NCBI RefSeq assembly: GCF_000419445.1
Contig: NZ_AULK01000002.1
Location: 310,001-374,000, forward strand
DNA from: Gryllotalpicola ginsengisoli DSM 22003
GTDB taxonomy: Bacteria; Actinomycetota; Actinomycetes; Actinomycetales; Microbacteriaceae
Length of the DNA stretch: 64,000 nt
Direction: 5' to 3'
The notes under the pieces are model-generated. The model did no database searches. It worked only from the letters and a program-made list of their open reading frames with translations, and was not told the origin of the DNA. The position numbers and the translations under genes are program-made. How positions within the stretch are numbered: the stretch's first letter is position 1; the number at the start of each line of letters is the position of its first letter. Positions 18,356 through 25,473 of the stretch are shown here, one piece after another.

Positions 18356-18444
18356 GCGTGCGATTCTGTCAGCGCGAATCATGTGCTGCAAGGGAATCCG
18401 CAGAAGGGCAGCCGTTTGGCGACGGAATCGGTAGACTCCCGCGC
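18356..18444. promoter_or_regulatory. Divergent promoter region of Lrp regulator and dehydrogenase
   Basis: Holds a TAGACT -10 (18432-18437) seven bases before the dehydrogenase ATG and a CAGAAT -10 for the Lrp gene on the other strand. An inverted pair GATTC (18362-18366)/GAATC (18376-18380) and further GAATC copies near 18394 and 18425 are possible Lrp-binding half-sites. Confidence 0.5.
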
Positions 18445-19884
18445 ATGTCGACGACGCGTACTCTGCAGAATTTCATCAACGGCGAGTTCACGGATGCGCG
18501 TGCCGAGCGCACCCTCGACCTGATCGATCCCGCGACCGAGGAGGTCTACGCCGAGGCCCCGGTCTCGACGGCCGCCGATGTCGACGCCGCCTTCGCCGCG
18601 GCATCCGCCGCCTTCGAGACGTGGCGGGAGACCACGCCGGCCGAGCGCCAGCTCGCCCTGTTCCGCATCGCCGACGCGATGGAGCAGCGGGCCGAGGAGT
18701 TCGCCGACCTGGAGAGCCAGGACACCGGCAAGCCGCGCGCGAGCCTCGTCGAGGACGAGATCCTGGTCTCCGTCGACCAGATCCGCTTCTTCGCCGGAGC
18801 GGCGCGCAACCTCGAGGGCCGGGCGGCCGCCGAGTACATGGCCGACCACACGAGCTTCATCCGGCGCGAGCCGATCGGCGTCGTCGGGCAGGTCACGCCC
18901 TGGAACTACCCGCTGAACATGGCGGTGTGGAAGTTCGCCCCTGCGCTCGCCGCCGGCAACACCACCGTGCTCAAGCCTTCGGACACCACGCCGCTGTCCA
19001 CCCTGCTGCTGGCCGAGGTCGCCGCAGAGTTCCTGCCCGCCGGCGTGCTGAACGTGATCGTCGGCGACCGGGGCACCGGCGCCGCCATGGTCGAGCATCC
19101 GACCCCGCAGCTGGTCTCGATCACCGGGTCGGTGCGCGCGGGCATGGAGGTGGCCCGGGCCGCGGCATCCGATCTCAAGCGCGTGCACCTGGAGCTCGGC
19201 GGCAAGGCGCCCGTCGTGGTGTTCGCCGACGCCGACCTGGAGAAGGCGGTGGAGGGCATCGTCGCCGCCGGGTACTTCAACGCCGGCCAGGACTGCACCG
19301 CCGCCACCCGGCTGCTCGTGCAGGAGGAGATCCACGACGAGTTCGTCGCGGCGCTCGCGGCGTACGCCCGCGACAACGCGAAGACGGGCGCGCCGCACGA
19401 GGAGGGGATCCTGTTCGGCCCGGTGAACAACGCCGCCCAGTTCGAGCGGGTCACCGGCTTCCTCGACCGGCTGCCGGGCCACGCCTCGGTGGCGCTGGGC
19501 GGCACGCGGCACGGCGAGAAGGGCTACTTCCTCGACGCGACGATCCTCGACGGGCTGCGGCAGGACGACGAGCACATCCAGAACGAGATCTTCGGGCCGG
19601 TGATGACGGTGCAGACCTTCCGCGACGAGGCCGAGGCGCTGCGCTGGGCGAACGGCGTGCAGTACGGCCTCGCCTCGAGCGTGTGGACGCAGAACCACGG
19701 GCGGGCGATGCGCTTCGCCAAGGGGCTCGACTTCGGCTGCGTGTGGATCAACACGCACATCCCGATCGTGGCCGAGATGCCGCACGGCGGCTTCAAGCAC
19801 TCCGGCTACGGCAAGGACCTGTCGCAGTACGGCTTCGAGGACTACACGCGAGTGAAGCACGTGATGTCGTTCATCGGCGAGTGA
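18445..19884 (+). CDS. Aldehyde dehydrogenase, probable 4-aminobutyraldehyde dehydrogenase
   Basis: NAD(P)-dependent oxidation of an aldehyde to an acid, 479 residues. The catalytic residues are visible: Glu in LELGGK and Cys in NAGQDCTAATR. The Rossmann motif SITGSVRAG and the C-terminal MPHGGFKHSGYGKD block are present. The FNAGQDCTAATR active site is typical of gamma-aminobutyraldehyde dehydrogenases, which complete putrescine breakdown to GABA after transamination. The context with the Lrp gene and the aminotransferase supports this. The transcript looks leaderless. Confidence 0.88.
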   Translation: MSTTRTLQNFINGEFTDARAERTLDLIDPATEEVYAEAPVSTAADVDAAFAAASAAFETWRETTPAERQLALFRIADAMEQRAEEFADLESQDTGKPRASLVEDEILVSVDQIRFFAGAARNLEGRAAAEYMADHTSFIRREPIGVVGQVTPWNYPLNMAVWKFAPALAAGNTTVLKPSDTTPLSTLLLAEVAAEFLPAGVLNVIVGDRGTGAAMVEHPTPQLVSITGSVRAGMEVARAAASDLKRVHLELGGKAPVVVFADADLEKAVEGIVAAGYFNAGQDCTAATRLLVQEEIHDEFVAALAAYARDNAKTGAPHEEGILFGPVNNAAQFERVTGFLDRLPGHASVALGGTRHGEKGYFLDATILDGLRQDDEHIQNEIFGPVMTVQTFRDEAEALRWANGVQYGLASSVWTQNHGRAMRFAKGLDFGCVWINTHIPIVAEMPHGGFKHSGYGKDLSQYGFEDYTRVKHVMSFIGE

Positions 19885-19978: not shown

Positions 19979-20830
19979 GTGACTCAGATCGGTCGCAGCA
20001 GCCGCCGGCACGACATCGTGCTGCCCGACCGCGACGGCGCACGCGTGAGCCTGGCCTGGGCGGCGGTCAGCGACAAGGGCCACCGGCGGGCCGTGAACGA
20101 GGACAGCCTGCTCGCGCGCTCGCCGATCTTCGCCGTCGCCGACGGCATGGGCGGCCACACGGCCGGCGACTTCGCCTCGGCGGCGGTCGTCACGCGACTG
20201 GCCGAGCAGCTCGGCAGCGGCTTCGTGGCGCAGGACGCGGTGAGCGACGCGCTGCGCGCGGCCGTCGACGACATGAGCCGCGGGGTGGGCCTCACCGATC
20301 TCGGCACGGGCACGACGGTCTCCGGCATCGCCCTCACGCTGCACGACGGAGAGGCGTACTGGCTGGTGTTCAACATCGGCGACTCCCGCGTGTACCAGCT
20401 GCTCGACGGCACCCTCGACCAGCTCACCGTCGACCACAGCATCGTGCAGCAGCTGCTCGACGCGGGCATGATCACCCCCGCCGAGGCGGAGGTGCACCCG
20501 CACTCCAACGTGATCACCCGCGCGGTCGGCTTCAACGAGGATCCGGTTCCCGACTTCTGGCTCATCCCGATCAGCGCCGGCGCCCGCCTGCTGGTGTGCT
20601 CCGACGGTCTGACCAAGGAGCTCACCGAGCACGGCGTGCGGCACTTCCTCTCCATCGGGGACTCGCCCGCAGACGCCGCGAACCGGCTGATGGAGGCGGC
20701 GCTGGGCAACGGCGGGCGCGACAACGTCAGCGTGATCGTCGTCGACGTGCTCGAGACGCCCGAGTCGTCCGCCGGCCGCCCCCGCACTGGGGGTCGGCGC
20801 CGGGCGCGCAGCGGGCCCGTCACGGCGTGA
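19979..20830 (+). CDS. PP2C-family protein serine/threonine phosphatase
   Basis: 283 residues, cytoplasmic, no membrane helix. PP2C motifs with metal-binding aspartates are in order: GHRRAVNEDS, VADGMGGHTAGD, GTGTTVSGI, GDSRVYQL, CSDGLTKEL and GGRDNVSVIVV. The GTG at 19979 has an AGGAGA ribosome site. It is the first gene of a co-oriented group with an FHA protein (66 bases downstream) and an FtsK/EccC-like ATPase. No kinase gene lies in the window. Dephosphorylation of phosphothreonine peptides recognised by the FHA partner is an inference from context. Confidence 0.93.
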   Translation: MTQIGRSSRRHDIVLPDRDGARVSLAWAAVSDKGHRRAVNEDSLLARSPIFAVADGMGGHTAGDFASAAVVTRLAEQLGSGFVAQDAVSDALRAAVDDMSRGVGLTDLGTGTTVSGIALTLHDGEAYWLVFNIGDSRVYQLLDGTLDQLTVDHSIVQQLLDAGMITPAEAEVHPHSNVITRAVGFNEDPVPDFWLIPISAGARLLVCSDGLTKELTEHGVRHFLSIGDSPADAANRLMEAALGNGGRDNVSVIVVDVLETPESSAGRPRTGGRRRARSGPVTA

Positions 20831-20896
20831 CGGGTCTTCGCGCCGCCGGCCGCGGGTTATCGTGAGGTCGGCACCACCCGAAAGGACCCGACACCC

Positions 20897-21466
20897 ATGA
20901 GATGCCGCGTGTGCGGAAGCGAGCTGTACGAGGGGGCGATCTTCTGCGGCGAGTGCGGCAGCGCCGTCGAGGCGACGCCGTACCTGCGGGCTCCCGTCGA
21001 CGACCGGCGCGCGTCGGACACCTCCATCGTCTCCGGGGCCGTGGTCGACGGGCCGACCGCCCGCCCCGTCGCGCCGAGCATGCCGGCGCCGGTGATCGAG
21101 GCATCCGCTCTGCCCGACCAGGGCAACCTCGCCGAGCCGGTGCCGACCTGGGTGATCGCCGCCTCGACGGGCGAGCGCGTCATCGTCGCCGGCAGCGGCC
21201 TGCTCGGCCGCAAGCCGGTCACGCCCGCCGGCGAGCAGTTCGACCAGCTCATCACCATCGCCGACCCGACCCGGTCGGTGTCGAAGACGCACCTCGAGTT
21301 CGGGGTCGAGGCCGGCGAGCTGTGGGTGCTCGACCGCTACTCCGCCAACGGCACGGCGGTGGTCTCGCCGGACGGGCAGCGGCGGGTGTGCGAACCCGGC
21401 CGCCGCTACCGGGTCGCCCGCGGCTCCCGCGTCGAGATCGGCGACCAGCACCTCACCATCGGGTAG
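20897..21466 (+). CDS. Zinc-ribbon and FHA domain protein
   Basis: 189 residues. The N-terminal zinc ribbon has Cys3, Cys6, Cys17 and Cys20 (CRVC ... CGEC). A linker rich in Ala, Pro and Val runs to about residue 90, and an FHA domain follows (GRKP, SVSKTHLEF, DRYSANGT). The FHA residues that bind phosphothreonine (Arg of GRKP, Ser and His of SKTH, Asn of SANGT) are kept. FHA proteins of this type are targets or partners of Ser/Thr kinases and of type VII secretion ATPases. It lies between the PP2C and EccC-like genes. An AAAGGA ribosome site precedes the ATG. Confidence 0.88.
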   Translation: MRCRVCGSELYEGAIFCGECGSAVEATPYLRAPVDDRRASDTSIVSGAVVDGPTARPVAPSMPAPVIEASALPDQGNLAEPVPTWVIAASTGERVIVAGSGLLGRKPVTPAGEQFDQLITIADPTRSVSKTHLEFGVEAGELWVLDRYSANGTAVVSPDGQRRVCEPGRRYRVARGSRVEIGDQHLTIG

Positions 21467-21527
21467 TTCTCCACAGCCCGCCGGCAGGGCGGGCGACGGA
21501 TGCGCGCACCGTGGTTCCCTGGACCGC

Positions 21528-24311
21528 GTGACCAGCCCGCTCAGCCTGCCGCCGCGACCTCCGCAGCCGCGCCCCGCGCGCATGTCGTGGGCGGCCTTCC
21601 TCACGCCCGTCGTCATGGCGGCCGTCATGTGGCTCATCACCCGCTCGCCGTACGCGCTCGCCTTCGCGGCGCTCGGGCCGATCGGCGCGGTGATCTCGCT
21701 CGTCGAGGCGCGCCGGGGCGGCGGCCGCGAGTCGAAGGCGGCGCGGGCCGAGCGCGCCGCCGAGTTGGACCTGCTGCGGGAGCGCATCGACGCCGCCCAC
21801 GACGACGAGCGGCGGATGCTCGAGCGCCGCGCCCCCGGAACCGCTGCCGCCCTCGCCTCGGTCGCCGGCGCCGCCCTGTGGAAAGCATCCGGAGACCCGG
21901 TCGTGCGCCTCGGCACCGGGGTGGTGCGCAGCGCCCTCGCGCTCAGCGGCGACGCGCGCGAGGTCGACGAGCAGGAGCTGCAGCGCCGGGCGGGCAGGCT
22001 CGAGGCCGCACCGGTGCTCGCTTCGCCCGGGGAGGGCGTCGCCGTGTGCGGGCATCCCGTGCTCGCGCGCGCCTACGCCCGCGCGCTGCTCGTGCAGCTG
22101 TACGCCGCCCACCCGCCCGGCGCGCTCGGCGCACCCGACGTCGCCGACCCCGCCGGGTACGCGCTGGGGGAGTGGGACTGGCTGGCCGGCCTGCCGCACG
22201 CCGACGCCCCTGCGACGGCCGCGGCGGCGGTGCGCATCGGCCTGTTCCCGGAGGCGAGGGCCGTGCCGCCCGGCTACCGGGCGCTCGTGACCGTCACGGC
22301 CCCCGGAACCGCGCGGGTGGAGCAGTACGGGGCCGAGGCGCCGCTCGAGGCGTCCGTGGTGCCCGAGCTCGTCTCGCGCGAGCAGGCCGAGCGCTTCGCC
22401 GCCGAGCTGGGTCGCCGCGCGGCCGGTCTGGGGCTCGGCGCGGCCGCGCGCTCCCTGCCGACCGAGGTGTCCTTCGCCGACCTGCCGCCGGCCGGCGGAC
22501 GCGGCCTCGCCGCCAACCTCGGGCGCACCCTGCGCGGGGTGCACGGTGTCGACCTCGTCACCGACGGTCCTCACGCCGTCGTTGCCGGCGTGACCGGCAG
22601 CGGCAAGAGCGAGCTGCTGGTGACCTGGGTGGCCGGCATGGTGGCCGGCCGCGGCGTCGACGAGGTCGTCGTGCTGCTCGTCGACTTCAAGGGCGGCACG
22701 GCCTTCCGGCCGCTGGAGCGGCTGCCGCACTGCGTCGGCGTGATCACCGACCTCGCCCACGGCGAGGCGGCCCGGGCGCTCTCGAGCCTCGCCGCCGAGC
22801 TGCGGCACCGCGAGGCCGAGCTGGCGCGCCTCGGCGTGCGCGACGTCGCCGAGGCGCGCGGCGCACTGCCGCGCCTCGTCATCGTCGTCGACGAGTTCGC
22901 GGCGATGATCGACGCCTTCCCCGACTTCGGCCCCCTGTTCATCGACATCGCGGCCCGCGGCCGCGCCCTGGGGGTGCACCTGATCCTCGCCACGCAGCGG
23001 CCGGCCGGCGTCATGCGCGACGCCCTGGTGGCCAACTGCCCGCTGCGGCTCAGCCTGCGCGTGCAGTCGGCCGCCGACAGCCGCTGGGTGGTCGGCTCGG
23101 ATTCTGCCAGCCTCATCTCGGCGTCGACGCCCGGGCGCTGCGTCATCGCGATCGACGGCGCCGAGACCGCCGTGCAGATCGCCCGCACGGATGACGCGGA
23201 CATCGCCGCGCTCGTCGATGCGGCCGCCGCGGGGCCCGCGCCGCGCCGGCCGTGGCTCGACCCGCTGCCGCCGGTGCTCACCCGCGCCCAGCTGCCCGCG
23301 GCCGGGCCCGAGGTGATCGGCCTCGTCGACCTGCCCGACGAGCAGCGGCAGGACGCCGTGCGCTTCGCCCTGTCCGAGACCCCGCTCGTCGTCTCCGGCG
23401 CCGCCCGCAGCGGCAAGAGCTCGCTGCTGCGGCTGATCGCCCGGGCGAGCGGGCTCGAGACGGTGCAGGTGGGCGCCGAGCGCGAGTCGGCGTGGGATGC
23501 GGTGGAGGCGGCGGCCGAGCGCTGCGACGCCCCGTTCGGCGCAGAGGCGCGGGTGCTGCTCGCGATCGACGACGCCGACGCGGTCGTCGCCAGGCTCGGC
23601 GACGACTACGCGGCGGTGTGGTGCGAGCGGCTCGCCCGCGTGCTGCGCGACGGCCCCGCGGCCGGGGTGCACGCCGTCGTCTCCGTGCAGCGTGCGAGCG
23701 GCGCGCTGCGCTCCGTGCTCGAGCTGGCCCGCGAGACCGTGCTGCTGCGCCAGGCCACCCGCCAGGACCACCTCCTGGCCGGGGCGCCGGCCGAGCTGTT
23801 CGACGAGGCCATGCCCGCAGGCGGCGGAGTGTGGCGCGGACGGCGCGTGCAGTTCCTCGCACCCGAGCTGCGCCTCGAGAGCGCCCCGCCCGCGGCCGAG
23901 CCCCCGCACGAGGTGCCGCTCGTGCCCGGCCCGGGGGAGATGAGCGTCGTGGTGACCCGCAGCCCGGCGCGCGTGATCTCCCGCGCCCGGGCCCTCGGCC
24001 TTCCCGCCGAGCGCATCGTCGACCTGTGCCGGCCGCCGCTGCCGGGCGAGCCGGTGCCCGAGTCGCTCCTCGCCGACACGGTGCAGGGGCTGCTGCTGGT
24101 CGGCGACCCGGACGCGTGGCTGGGGCGCTGGGGCTTGCTCGCCGCGCTGCGGCCGCGGCATCCGCTCGTGTTCGTCGGCTGCGACGCCTCCGACGTGCGC
24201 GCCGTCGCGCGCAGCCGCGTGCTGCCGCCGCCACTGGCACCCGGCTCGGGCGCGTGCTGGCTCGTCGCCCCCGACGGACGCACCCGCCGCTGCACCCTGC
24301 AGGCCGCGTGA
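21528..24311 (+). CDS. FtsK/SpoIIIE-type ATPase resembling type VII secretion EccC
   Basis: 927 residues. Two membrane helices near residues 20-58 are followed by a coiled, charged segment. The first P-loop ATPase domain has GVTGSGKS around 353-361, Walker B VIVVDEFAAM, and the ATQRPAGVM and RLSLRVQSAADSRWVVG blocks typical of FtsK/EccC. A second domain has GAARSGKS around 624-631 and a weaker Walker B, LLAIDDADAVV. EccC has the same membrane-anchored architecture but usually three ATPase domains. No WXG100 substrate or EccB/D/E gene is in the window. Export powered by this pump is therefore inferred, and a DNA translocase is the alternative. Confidence 0.82.
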   Translation: MTSPLSLPPRPPQPRPARMSWAAFLTPVVMAAVMWLITRSPYALAFAALGPIGAVISLVEARRGGGRESKAARAERAAELDLLRERIDAAHDDERRMLERRAPGTAAALASVAGAALWKASGDPVVRLGTGVVRSALALSGDAREVDEQELQRRAGRLEAAPVLASPGEGVAVCGHPVLARAYARALLVQLYAAHPPGALGAPDVADPAGYALGEWDWLAGLPHADAPATAAAAVRIGLFPEARAVPPGYRALVTVTAPGTARVEQYGAEAPLEASVVPELVSREQAERFAAELGRRAAGLGLGAAARSLPTEVSFADLPPAGGRGLAANLGRTLRGVHGVDLVTDGPHAVVAGVTGSGKSELLVTWVAGMVAGRGVDEVVVLLVDFKGGTAFRPLERLPHCVGVITDLAHGEAARALSSLAAELRHREAELARLGVRDVAEARGALPRLVIVVDEFAAMIDAFPDFGPLFIDIAARGRALGVHLILATQRPAGVMRDALVANCPLRLSLRVQSAADSRWVVGSDSASLISASTPGRCVIAIDGAETAVQIARTDDADIAALVDAAAAGPAPRRPWLDPLPPVLTRAQLPAAGPEVIGLVDLPDEQRQDAVRFALSETPLVVSGAARSGKSSLLRLIARASGLETVQVGAERESAWDAVEAAAERCDAPFGAEARVLLAIDDADAVVARLGDDYAAVWCERLARVLRDGPAAGVHAVVSVQRASGALRSVLELARETVLLRQATRQDHLLAGAPAELFDEAMPAGGGVWRGRRVQFLAPELRLESAPPAAEPPHEVPLVPGPGEMSVVVTRSPARVISRARALGLPAERIVDLCRPPLPGEPVPESLLADTVQGLLLVGDPDAWLGRWGLLAALRPRHPLVFVGCDASDVRAVARSRVLPPPLAPGSGACWLVAPDGRTRRCTLQAA

Positions 24312-24348: not shown

Positions 24349-25473
24349 TCAGGCCGCGATCGCCAGCGCCTCGGCCAGGTTGCCGCTGGGCAGGCCGTGC
24401 GCCTCGGCCACCGGGGCGTTCACGACGCTGCCGGCGTGCACATTCAGCCCGAGCGCGAGCGCCGGGTCGGCGGCCAGGGCGCGCTGCCAGCCGACCCCGG
24501 CGATCGCCCGGATGTACGGCAGGGTGGCGTTGGTCAGCGCATAGGTGGAGGTCTGGGCGACCGCACCCGGCATGTTGGCGACGCAGTAGAAGATCGAGCC
24601 GTGCACCGGGAAGGTGGGCGCGGTGTGCGTCGTCGGGTGGCTGTCGGCGAAGCATCCGCCCTGGTCGATCGCGATGTCGACGAGCACGCTGCCCGGGCGC
24701 ATGCGCGAGACGAGCTCGTTGCCGACGAGCTTGGGCGCCTTCGCGCCGGGGATCAGCACGGCGCCGACGACGAGGTCGGCCTCGGTGACGGTCCGGTCGA
24801 TCTCGAACGGGTTGGAGGCGATGGTGCGGATGCGCCCCTGGTAGAGGTCGTCGAGTTCGCGCAGCCGGTTGATGTTCGTGTCGAGCACGGTGACCGTCGC
24901 GCCGAGCCCGACGGCGGTCGTGATCGCGTTCGATCCGGCGACGCCGCCGCCGATGATGACGACGTCGGCGGGGCGCGTGCCGGGCACGCCGGGGACGAGC
25001 AGGCCCGGCCCTCCGGCCGGCTTCATCATCGTCGCGGCGCCGACGATCGGCGCCAGGCGGCCGGCCACCTCGCTCATCGGCGCGAGCAGCGGCAGCTGGC
25101 GGTTCGGCAGCTGCACGGTCTCGTACGCGATGGCGGTGACGCCCGAGTCGACGAGCGCGCGGGTGAGCTCGGGGTCGGCGGCAAGGTGCAGGTAGGTGAA
25201 GATGACGAGGCCCGGGCGGAAGTAGCCGTACTCGGGGAGAATCGGCTCCTTCACCTTGAGGATCAGCTCGGCGTCGCCCCACACCCGGGCGGGATCGGCG
25301 ACCAGTTCGGCGCCGGCCGCCGCGTACTCCTCGTCGGAGATCGACGAGCCGAGGCCGGCCCCGCTCTCCACGACGACGGTGTGGCCCGCACCCACCAGGG
25401 CGTCCACGCCCGACGGGGTGATGGCCACCCGGAACTCGTTGTCCTTGATCTCCCGGGGGACGGCGATACGCAT
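24349..25473 (-). CDS. ald: Alanine dehydrogenase
   Basis: Interconverts L-alanine and pyruvate plus ammonia with NAD. 374 residues, normal length. The N-terminus MRIAVPREIKDNEFRVAI, the catalytic Lys in ELILKVKEP, His in LHLAADPELT and the Rossmann loop VIIGGGVAGSNA are all present. The transcript is probably leaderless (TACTCT seven bases before the ATG). It lies 31 bases downstream of the asparaginase gene on the same strand, suggesting a shared role in nitrogen release from amino acids. Confidence 0.96.
   Translation of the reverse strand: MRIAVPREIKDNEFRVAITPSGVDALVGAGHTVVVESGAGLGSSISDEEYAAAGAELVADPARVWGDAELILKVKEPILPEYGYFRPGLVIFTYLHLAADPELTRALVDSGVTAIAYETVQLPNRQLPLLAPMSEVAGRLAPIVGAATMMKPAGGPGLLVPGVPGTRPADVVIIGGGVAGSNAITTAVGLGATVTVLDTNINRLRELDDLYQGRIRTIASNPFEIDRTVTEADLVVGAVLIPGAKAPKLVGNELVSRMRPGSVLVDIAIDQGGCFADSHPTTHTAPTFPVHGSIFYCVANMPGAVAQTSTYALTNATLPYIRAIAGVGWQRALAADPALALGLNVHAGSVVNAPVAEAHGLPSGNLAEALAIAA

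Follow-up and report, generated by a model that had tools for sequence, protein, structure and literature searches.

A short EccC/EssC-type ATPase and an unlinked WXG100 protein as probable parts of a reduced type VII-like exporter in Gryllotalpicola ginsengisoli and other Microbacteriaceae

The window analysed here, a stretch of 64,000 nucleotides at positions 310001-374000 of contig C2 in the 2.94-Mb genome of Gryllotalpicola ginsengisoli DSM 22003 (family Microbacteriaceae), contains three adjacent genes coding for a PP2C-type phosphatase, a protein with a zinc ribbon and an FHA domain, and a short membrane ATPase of the EccC/EssC type. We conclude that this trio is probably, with a probability of roughly 0.7, the locus that encodes the motor of a reduced type VII-like exporter, the most likely cargo of which is one dedicated WXG100 protein encoded elsewhere in the genome next to groEL. 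The observations behind this conclusion are the homology and architecture of the motor, the linkage of FHA, PP2C and kinase genes to it in related genomes, the co-occurrence of the ATPase with the WXG100 protein, and a conserved export motif in the latter. From these we infer a minimal WXG100 exporter that is split over loci and probably phospho-regulated.

The ATPase (927 amino acids, positions 21528-24311 of the window, forward strand) was characterised by profiles, alignment, a predicted model, a fold search and a tree of its D1 domain. It matched FtsK_SpoIIIE with an E-value of 1.9e-27, and the EccCa and EssC models with 212 and 204 bits, which is below the equivalog cut-offs of NCBIfam. 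When a profile of 24 orthologues of the short ATPase was aligned to a profile of ten full-length EssC proteins of the same family using hhalign, 797 columns were paired with a probability of 100 and an E-value of 1e-113, covering EssC residues 230-1254 of 1499. Since this alignment spans the membrane hairpin, stalk, D0, D1 and D2 and ends at residue 1254, the short ATPase is, judged from its alignment, an EssC without the N-terminal FHA region and most of D3. Its layout comprises two transmembrane helices (residues 19-61), the stalk, D0, an intact D1 (approximately 326-560) and a degenerate D2 (approximately 595-780), after which the predicted model (mean pLDDT, the predicted local distance difference test score, of 85) has a short C-terminal alpha/beta remnant with no P-loop; it is therefore not a full D0-D3 motor, D3 being reduced to this remnant. 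The D1 motifs TGSGKSE, DFKGG, VDEF, ARGR and TQRP are near-invariant across the orthologues, in which D1 is the sole intact domain and the second Walker A is gone in several. An earlier, sequence-only reading of this DNA had counted two ATPase domains instead of three; this is wrong in detail, as the alignment gives hairpin, stalk, D0, D1 and D2, followed by a remnant, with only D1 intact across the orthologues. The same reading had regarded the protein as EccC-like and had named clustering with DNA translocases as a refuting outcome; our results bear out the EccC-like assignment: the top solved-structure match in the fold search was the EccC of T. curvata (4nh0, E 4e-31), and in the D1 tree the window ATPase fell into a short-form clade within EccC/EssC while FtsK formed a clade of its own (100/100). 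On the basis of this tree and the fold search, an FtsK paralogue or DNA translocase was rejected as an identity; the genome carries a separate FtsK at C2:416353. Among 247 Actinomycetia-level genomes, a protein search with three candidates scored per genome found the short form only in Microbacteriaceae.

Even smaller relatives of this motor were detected by a sensitive search in six streamlined genomes of 1.1-1.7 Mb (G010, G092, G013, G095, G081 and G144), where the ATPases measure just 318-349 amino acids. They consist of a short hydrophobic N-terminus and a single D1 with Walker A, DFKGG and a DE-type Walker B, and are far shorter than any EccC/EssC in the searched set. The gene directly follows an aldehyde dehydrogenase gene in two of the six genomes, and all six have kept the lone WXG100 protein described below, along with its YxxxE export motif. 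The D1 tree rejects the short and mini forms as one clade (approximately unbiased test, p 0.045), most likely as a result of long-branch D2 rows joining them; a single origin of the mini forms is supported by position and motifs, in some lineages only.

The putative cargo, a WXG100 protein of 97 amino acids, is encoded at C5:45870-46163 and scores above both the Pfam and the NCBIfam cut-offs. Its gene is flanked by a pair coding for a HAMP histidine kinase and an OmpR-type regulator on one side and by a convergent groEL on the other. This neighbourhood is conserved, with groEL present at 29 and the histidine kinase at 28 of the 30 loci read, and the order is kept in the streamlined genomes as well. 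All 36 orthologues read carry WxG together with YxxxD/E near the C-terminus, and this C-terminal motif fits the extended type VII secretion signal Y..E......F (PMC3935865). Of the features expected of a type VII secretion system, the genome thus has a WXG100 protein with YxxxD/E, which is tied to the short motor by co-occurrence only, and an EccC/EssC-type membrane ATPase in the form of the short motor itself, though under the equivalog cut-offs as noted. The lone WXG100 protein carries WxG and a C-terminal YxxxE signal and probably forms a homodimer. Over C5:43253-48013 an OmpR-type response regulator gene comes first, followed by the HAMP histidine kinase, the WXG100 gene, the convergent groEL and a cold-shock gene; the WXG100 gene may be under the control of this two-component system.

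The co-occurrence of the two genes was scored over the same 150 Microbacteriaceae genomes, presence being called by E-value and frame length. Both genes were found in 111 genomes and neither in 36, leaving three discordant ones: a single genome with the ATPase only (75% complete) and two with the WXG100 protein only (83% and 97% complete). The association is strong (Fisher 4e-31, uncorrected for kinship) and persists at the level of genus codes (61 with both genes, 22 with neither and 2 discordant). The suggestion of the sequence-only reading that the substrates lie elsewhere fits well with this pattern, in which a lone and unlinked WXG100 gene was kept or lost together with the ATPase in 147 of 150 genomes. 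Full-length EccC behaves differently. Counted among the matches listed (E down to about 1e-55), so that numbers of genomes without it are upper bounds, it occurs in 35 of the 37 genomes without the lone WXG100 protein versus 56 of the 113 with it, and genomes that have only full-length EccC are without the lone WXG100 protein. Conversely, all 22 genomes in which the short ATPase is the best EssC match hold a WXG100 protein; 15 of these have exactly one, linked to groEL, and no full-length EccC among the matches listed. As a separate observation, in two genomes of one genus (G067 and G131) the short ATPase gene is either truncated, its open reading frame then spanning 564 amino acids from stop to stop and about 545 if counted from the first possible start, or interrupted by TGA, and the WXG100 protein of this genus is weakly conserved (30-31% identity); the pair is possibly decaying there.

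The three genes of the window locus lie in the same orientation at 19979-20830, 20897-21466 and 21528-24311, with spacers of 66 and 61 bp, as the sequence-only reading had described. The first (forward strand) codes for a PP2C-type Ser/Thr phosphatase of 283 amino acids, assigned by Pfam and NCBIfam profiles (PP2C_2, E 6.5e-12; Stp1, E 4e-55), motifs and tblastn; it starts with a GTG codon preceded by AGGAG, and its metal-binding motifs NED, DGMGGH, GDSR and GGRDN are all kept. The second (forward strand), assigned by Pfam and motif reading, codes for an adaptor of 189 amino acids in which an N-terminal CxxC..CxxC zinc ribbon and a C-terminal FHA domain are indeed found in one protein as that reading had proposed, each only just above the Pfam cut-off. 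The FHA domain carries the phosphothreonine-binding signature GR..SxxH..NGT (LGRK, SKTH, NGT). Orthologous frames were found at 68 of the loci in 80 named relatives that made up our sample for locus comparison, and the signature is present in 67 of 69 frames and the zinc ribbon in 65. The locus is bordered by two genes that we place outside the machine: on the left an aldehyde dehydrogenase (18358-19884, forward strand), a conserved neighbour also in streamlined genomes, and on the right a convergent alanine dehydrogenase (24349-25473, reverse strand), a conserved neighbour in many relatives. No WXG100, EccB, EccD, EccE or mycosin gene lies beside the trio, again as claimed earlier, and a WXG100 gene and a full EssC locus are located elsewhere in the genome. 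EccB/D/E, MycP and EsaA/EssA/EssB/EsaB were likewise not encoded in the conserved surroundings of either the motor or the lone WXG100 gene; no genome-wide search was made for them or for YukD.

In the relatives the ATPase is usually part of a longer operon. The order seen in most Microbacteriaceae is PP2C, kinase, a giant Fn3/Ig protein, MoxR, DUF58, TgpA, zinc-ribbon/FHA protein and EccC. At 46 of the 80 loci we found (Fn3-MoxR-DUF58-TgpA)-FHA-ATPase, some of them cut by contig ends; at 18 the window's own order PP2C-FHA-ATPase, at 10 PP2C-ATPase, at five FHA-ATPase on cut contigs, and at one the ATPase alone. In ten long-operon genomes read further upstream of the Fn3 giant, PP2C and a Ser/Thr kinase were present in all and an extra FHA protein in nine, and in several of them an aldehyde dehydrogenase of the window's type also borders the operon. 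The PP2C of the window belongs to the same family as the one opening the long operon (tblastn, E down to 6e-126). The window locus most plausibly represents the outer parts of the long operon, with the kinase-Fn3-MoxR-DUF58-TgpA middle missing. It does not have the core order of the PFNA operon (kinase, fn3, aaa-atp, duf58, tgm), which is present in the long version in 10/10 relatives read upstream and at two other loci of the own genome, on C9 and C10. A kinase gene is part of the ATPase operon in most relatives; in the own genome the kinases are at other loci, two of them within these further Fn3-MoxR-DUF58-TgpA clusters. The clusters (C9:42013-57410 and C10:39002-57890) comprise a kinase, MoxR, DUF58, TgpA, FHA and one or two giant Ig/cadherin/Fn3 proteins each (1780-2223 amino acids); the C9 cluster also contains a PP2C, and the C10 cluster ends 0.5 kb short of the contig end after an FHA protein resembling that of the window. 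The expectation that the trio is conserved together was borne out for the FHA gene, which in 69 of the 80 relatives adjoins the ATPase gene, and failed for the exact trio, which is adjacent in only 18. As to the notion of a phospho-switched machine, FHA, PP2C and kinase genes are linked to the motor in relatives; since relatives with PP2C-ATPase only or with the ATPase only exist, phospho-control is however to be regarded as accessory.

This linkage also raises the alternative that the short EccC serves the Fn3/Ig giant-MoxR-DUF58-TgpA surface system, in its export, assembly or regulation, and that the WXG100 protein is a secondary passenger or an indirect correlate. The ATPase closes the Fn3-MoxR-DUF58-TgpA-FHA operon in at least 41 of 80 named loci, and the consistent presence of PP2C and kinase upstream speaks for the same idea. 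The Fn3 block is, however, gone from the locus in the group of the window (18), in the PP2C-ATPase group (10) and in the streamlined genomes, where ATPase and WXG100 protein persist, and neither of the two other Fn3 clusters of the own genome has an EccC of its own. We therefore consider this alternative unlikely.

A second alternative is that the family inherited both genes from its ancestor and that a few lineages lost them jointly, without a direct functional link. The genomes lacking the pair do cluster by genus, and about four to seven changes suffice on single-gene trees. On an EssC tree of 50 genomes, however, the pair changed together seven times, six of them on supported branches, and never apart, and six supported independent pairs were all concordant; an FtsK tree of 35 genomes gave three concordant independent pairs, none opposed and two undecided, the latter owing to incomplete or discordant genomes. 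Several concordant losses are thus suggested, the exact number being left aside since the trees are single-gene proxies. In addition, the two genes are unlinked, an EccC relative together with a WXG100 protein with an intact export motif corresponds to a known motor-substrate pairing, and full-length EccC shows no such positive association. Mere shared ancestry appears quite improbable to us.

The genome also contains a locus with an FHA-EssC and WXG100-like and LXG-like genes (C8:61952-73245), so the short ATPase might be conceived as a second motor subunit of this canonical EssC system that makes use of the same membrane parts and substrates. As up to 57 genomes with the lone WXG100 protein have no full-length EccC among the matches listed, and many EssC genomes have no short ATPase, this is very improbable. 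The WXG100 protein of the EssC locus was rejected as partner of the short motor because EssC-only genomes are without the lone type and the association with full-length EccC is negative. Encoded at the full-length FHA-EssC loci of the family are WXG100-like proteins, LXG/T7SS_signal-like ones and small proteins of 206-214 amino acids whose family is unknown; Pfam recognised no EccB/D/E- or EssA/EssB/EsaA-like neighbour at these loci, the own one included. That the locus encodes a machine of the FtsK/HerA kind acting on DNA, or an anti-phage system like MADS or Ssp, is hardly credible and was rejected, since the PADLOC matches (mads_8, 3e-30; SspH, 4e-28) are weak and reflect a shared fold only, with none for the FHA protein, only a weak one for PP2C and no specific match to mad8 or SspH with their partner genes, while the EccC/EssC models match far better (2e-62), FtsK is separated in the D1 tree and the locus sits between housekeeping genes at a chromosomal position conserved across many genera.

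For the reduced type VII-like exporter, we envisage by analogy with EccC/EssC that ATP hydrolysis by D1 would power the passage of a WXG100 dimer through a hexameric channel whose lining is formed by helices of the motor itself. The separate zinc-ribbon/FHA protein would stand in for the FHA that is fused to EssC and would link the motor with a Ser/Thr kinase, and PP2C would remove the kinase mark and so reset the switch. Since D3 of EccC binds the tail of EsxB (PMC10765036) and is reduced or absent here, the WXG100 protein would have to be recognised other than through D3. This last point weighs against our interpretation, as the EsxB-binding domain is reduced in the short ATPase and absent in the small forms, and there are others. 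Export of the WXG100 protein is inferred from co-occurrence and motifs; co-occurrence and co-loss are correlations, and the trees used are proxies. The EssC tree splits two g55 genomes, so that some changes there may reflect transfer. G066, a genome 97% complete, holds the WXG100 protein with no ATPase detected. Phospho-control can be dispensed with, since some relatives have neither FHA nor PP2C at the locus or lack one of them. A stricter version, which we offer tentatively and at somewhat less than even odds, is a two-part exporter made of the truncated EccC and one groEL-linked WXG100 protein only, with neither EccB/D/E nor recognition through D3; in streamlined lineages a motor of about 320 residues with a single ATPase domain would then be the smallest type VII-like machine, and phospho-control by a separate FHA protein would be optional.

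Type VII secretion is generally presented as the work of a large machine of many proteins, the motor of which reads WXG100 cargo via its last ATPase domain. If our interpretation is true, a motor without this domain, and with a single one in some lineages, would define the minimum for WXG100 export. Small non-pathogen models of the channel would become available, and it would become possible to test directly how motor and cargo recognise each other, a question of long standing. The generalisation that all actinobacterial WXG100 genes are bicistronic and inside type VII operons, with no exception (PMC3935865), would be overturned.

Compared with known systems, the locus shares with type VIIb secretion (EssC/EsxA; YukB of B. 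subtilis) an EssC-type motor with hairpin, D0, D1 and D2, the involvement of FHA and a single WXG100 gene, reminiscent of homodimeric EsxA. It differs in that the short motor is without a fused FHA and most or all of D3, that the FHA protein is separate and keeps the phosphothreonine-binding residues which the FHA domains of EssC lack (PMC10765036), that EssA/EssB/EsaA/EsaB are not encoded beside the motor, and that the WXG100 gene lies away from it at the groEL locus. With type VIIa/ESX (EccC of T. curvata, mycobacterial EccC5) it shares the best solved-structure match and an actinobacterial WXG100 protein with YxxxE. ESX-5, however, requires five membrane components (PMC10597459), whereas no EccB/D/E or MycP is encoded near the short motor; there is also no PE/PPE, and the WXG100 gene is single instead of one of a bicistronic pair. 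The PFNA operon of Bifidobacterium consists of pkb2, fn3, aaa-atp, duf58, tgm, prpC, a hypothetical gene and fha, with no EccC-like ATPase described (PMC8430577). Its kinase, Fn3 giant, MoxR-type AAA, DUF58, transglutaminase-like, PP2C and FHA proteins match the long locus of the relatives and the two further clusters of the own genome, but the Microbacteriaceae locus ends in the zinc-ribbon/FHA protein and a short EccC, and the window lacks the kinase-to-TgpA block. In the literature searched, we found no paper joining WXG100 proteins with Microbacteriaceae. Pairs of WXG100 and FtsK/SpoIIIE proteins in a few Gram-negatives, an unconfirmed mention in a review (PMC10765036), have the same two-part inventory; in our case, the motor could be identified as a short EccC, its partner is encoded at an unlinked site and 150 genomes underlie the pairing. 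The parts of the system are already known, and it is their combination that is new.

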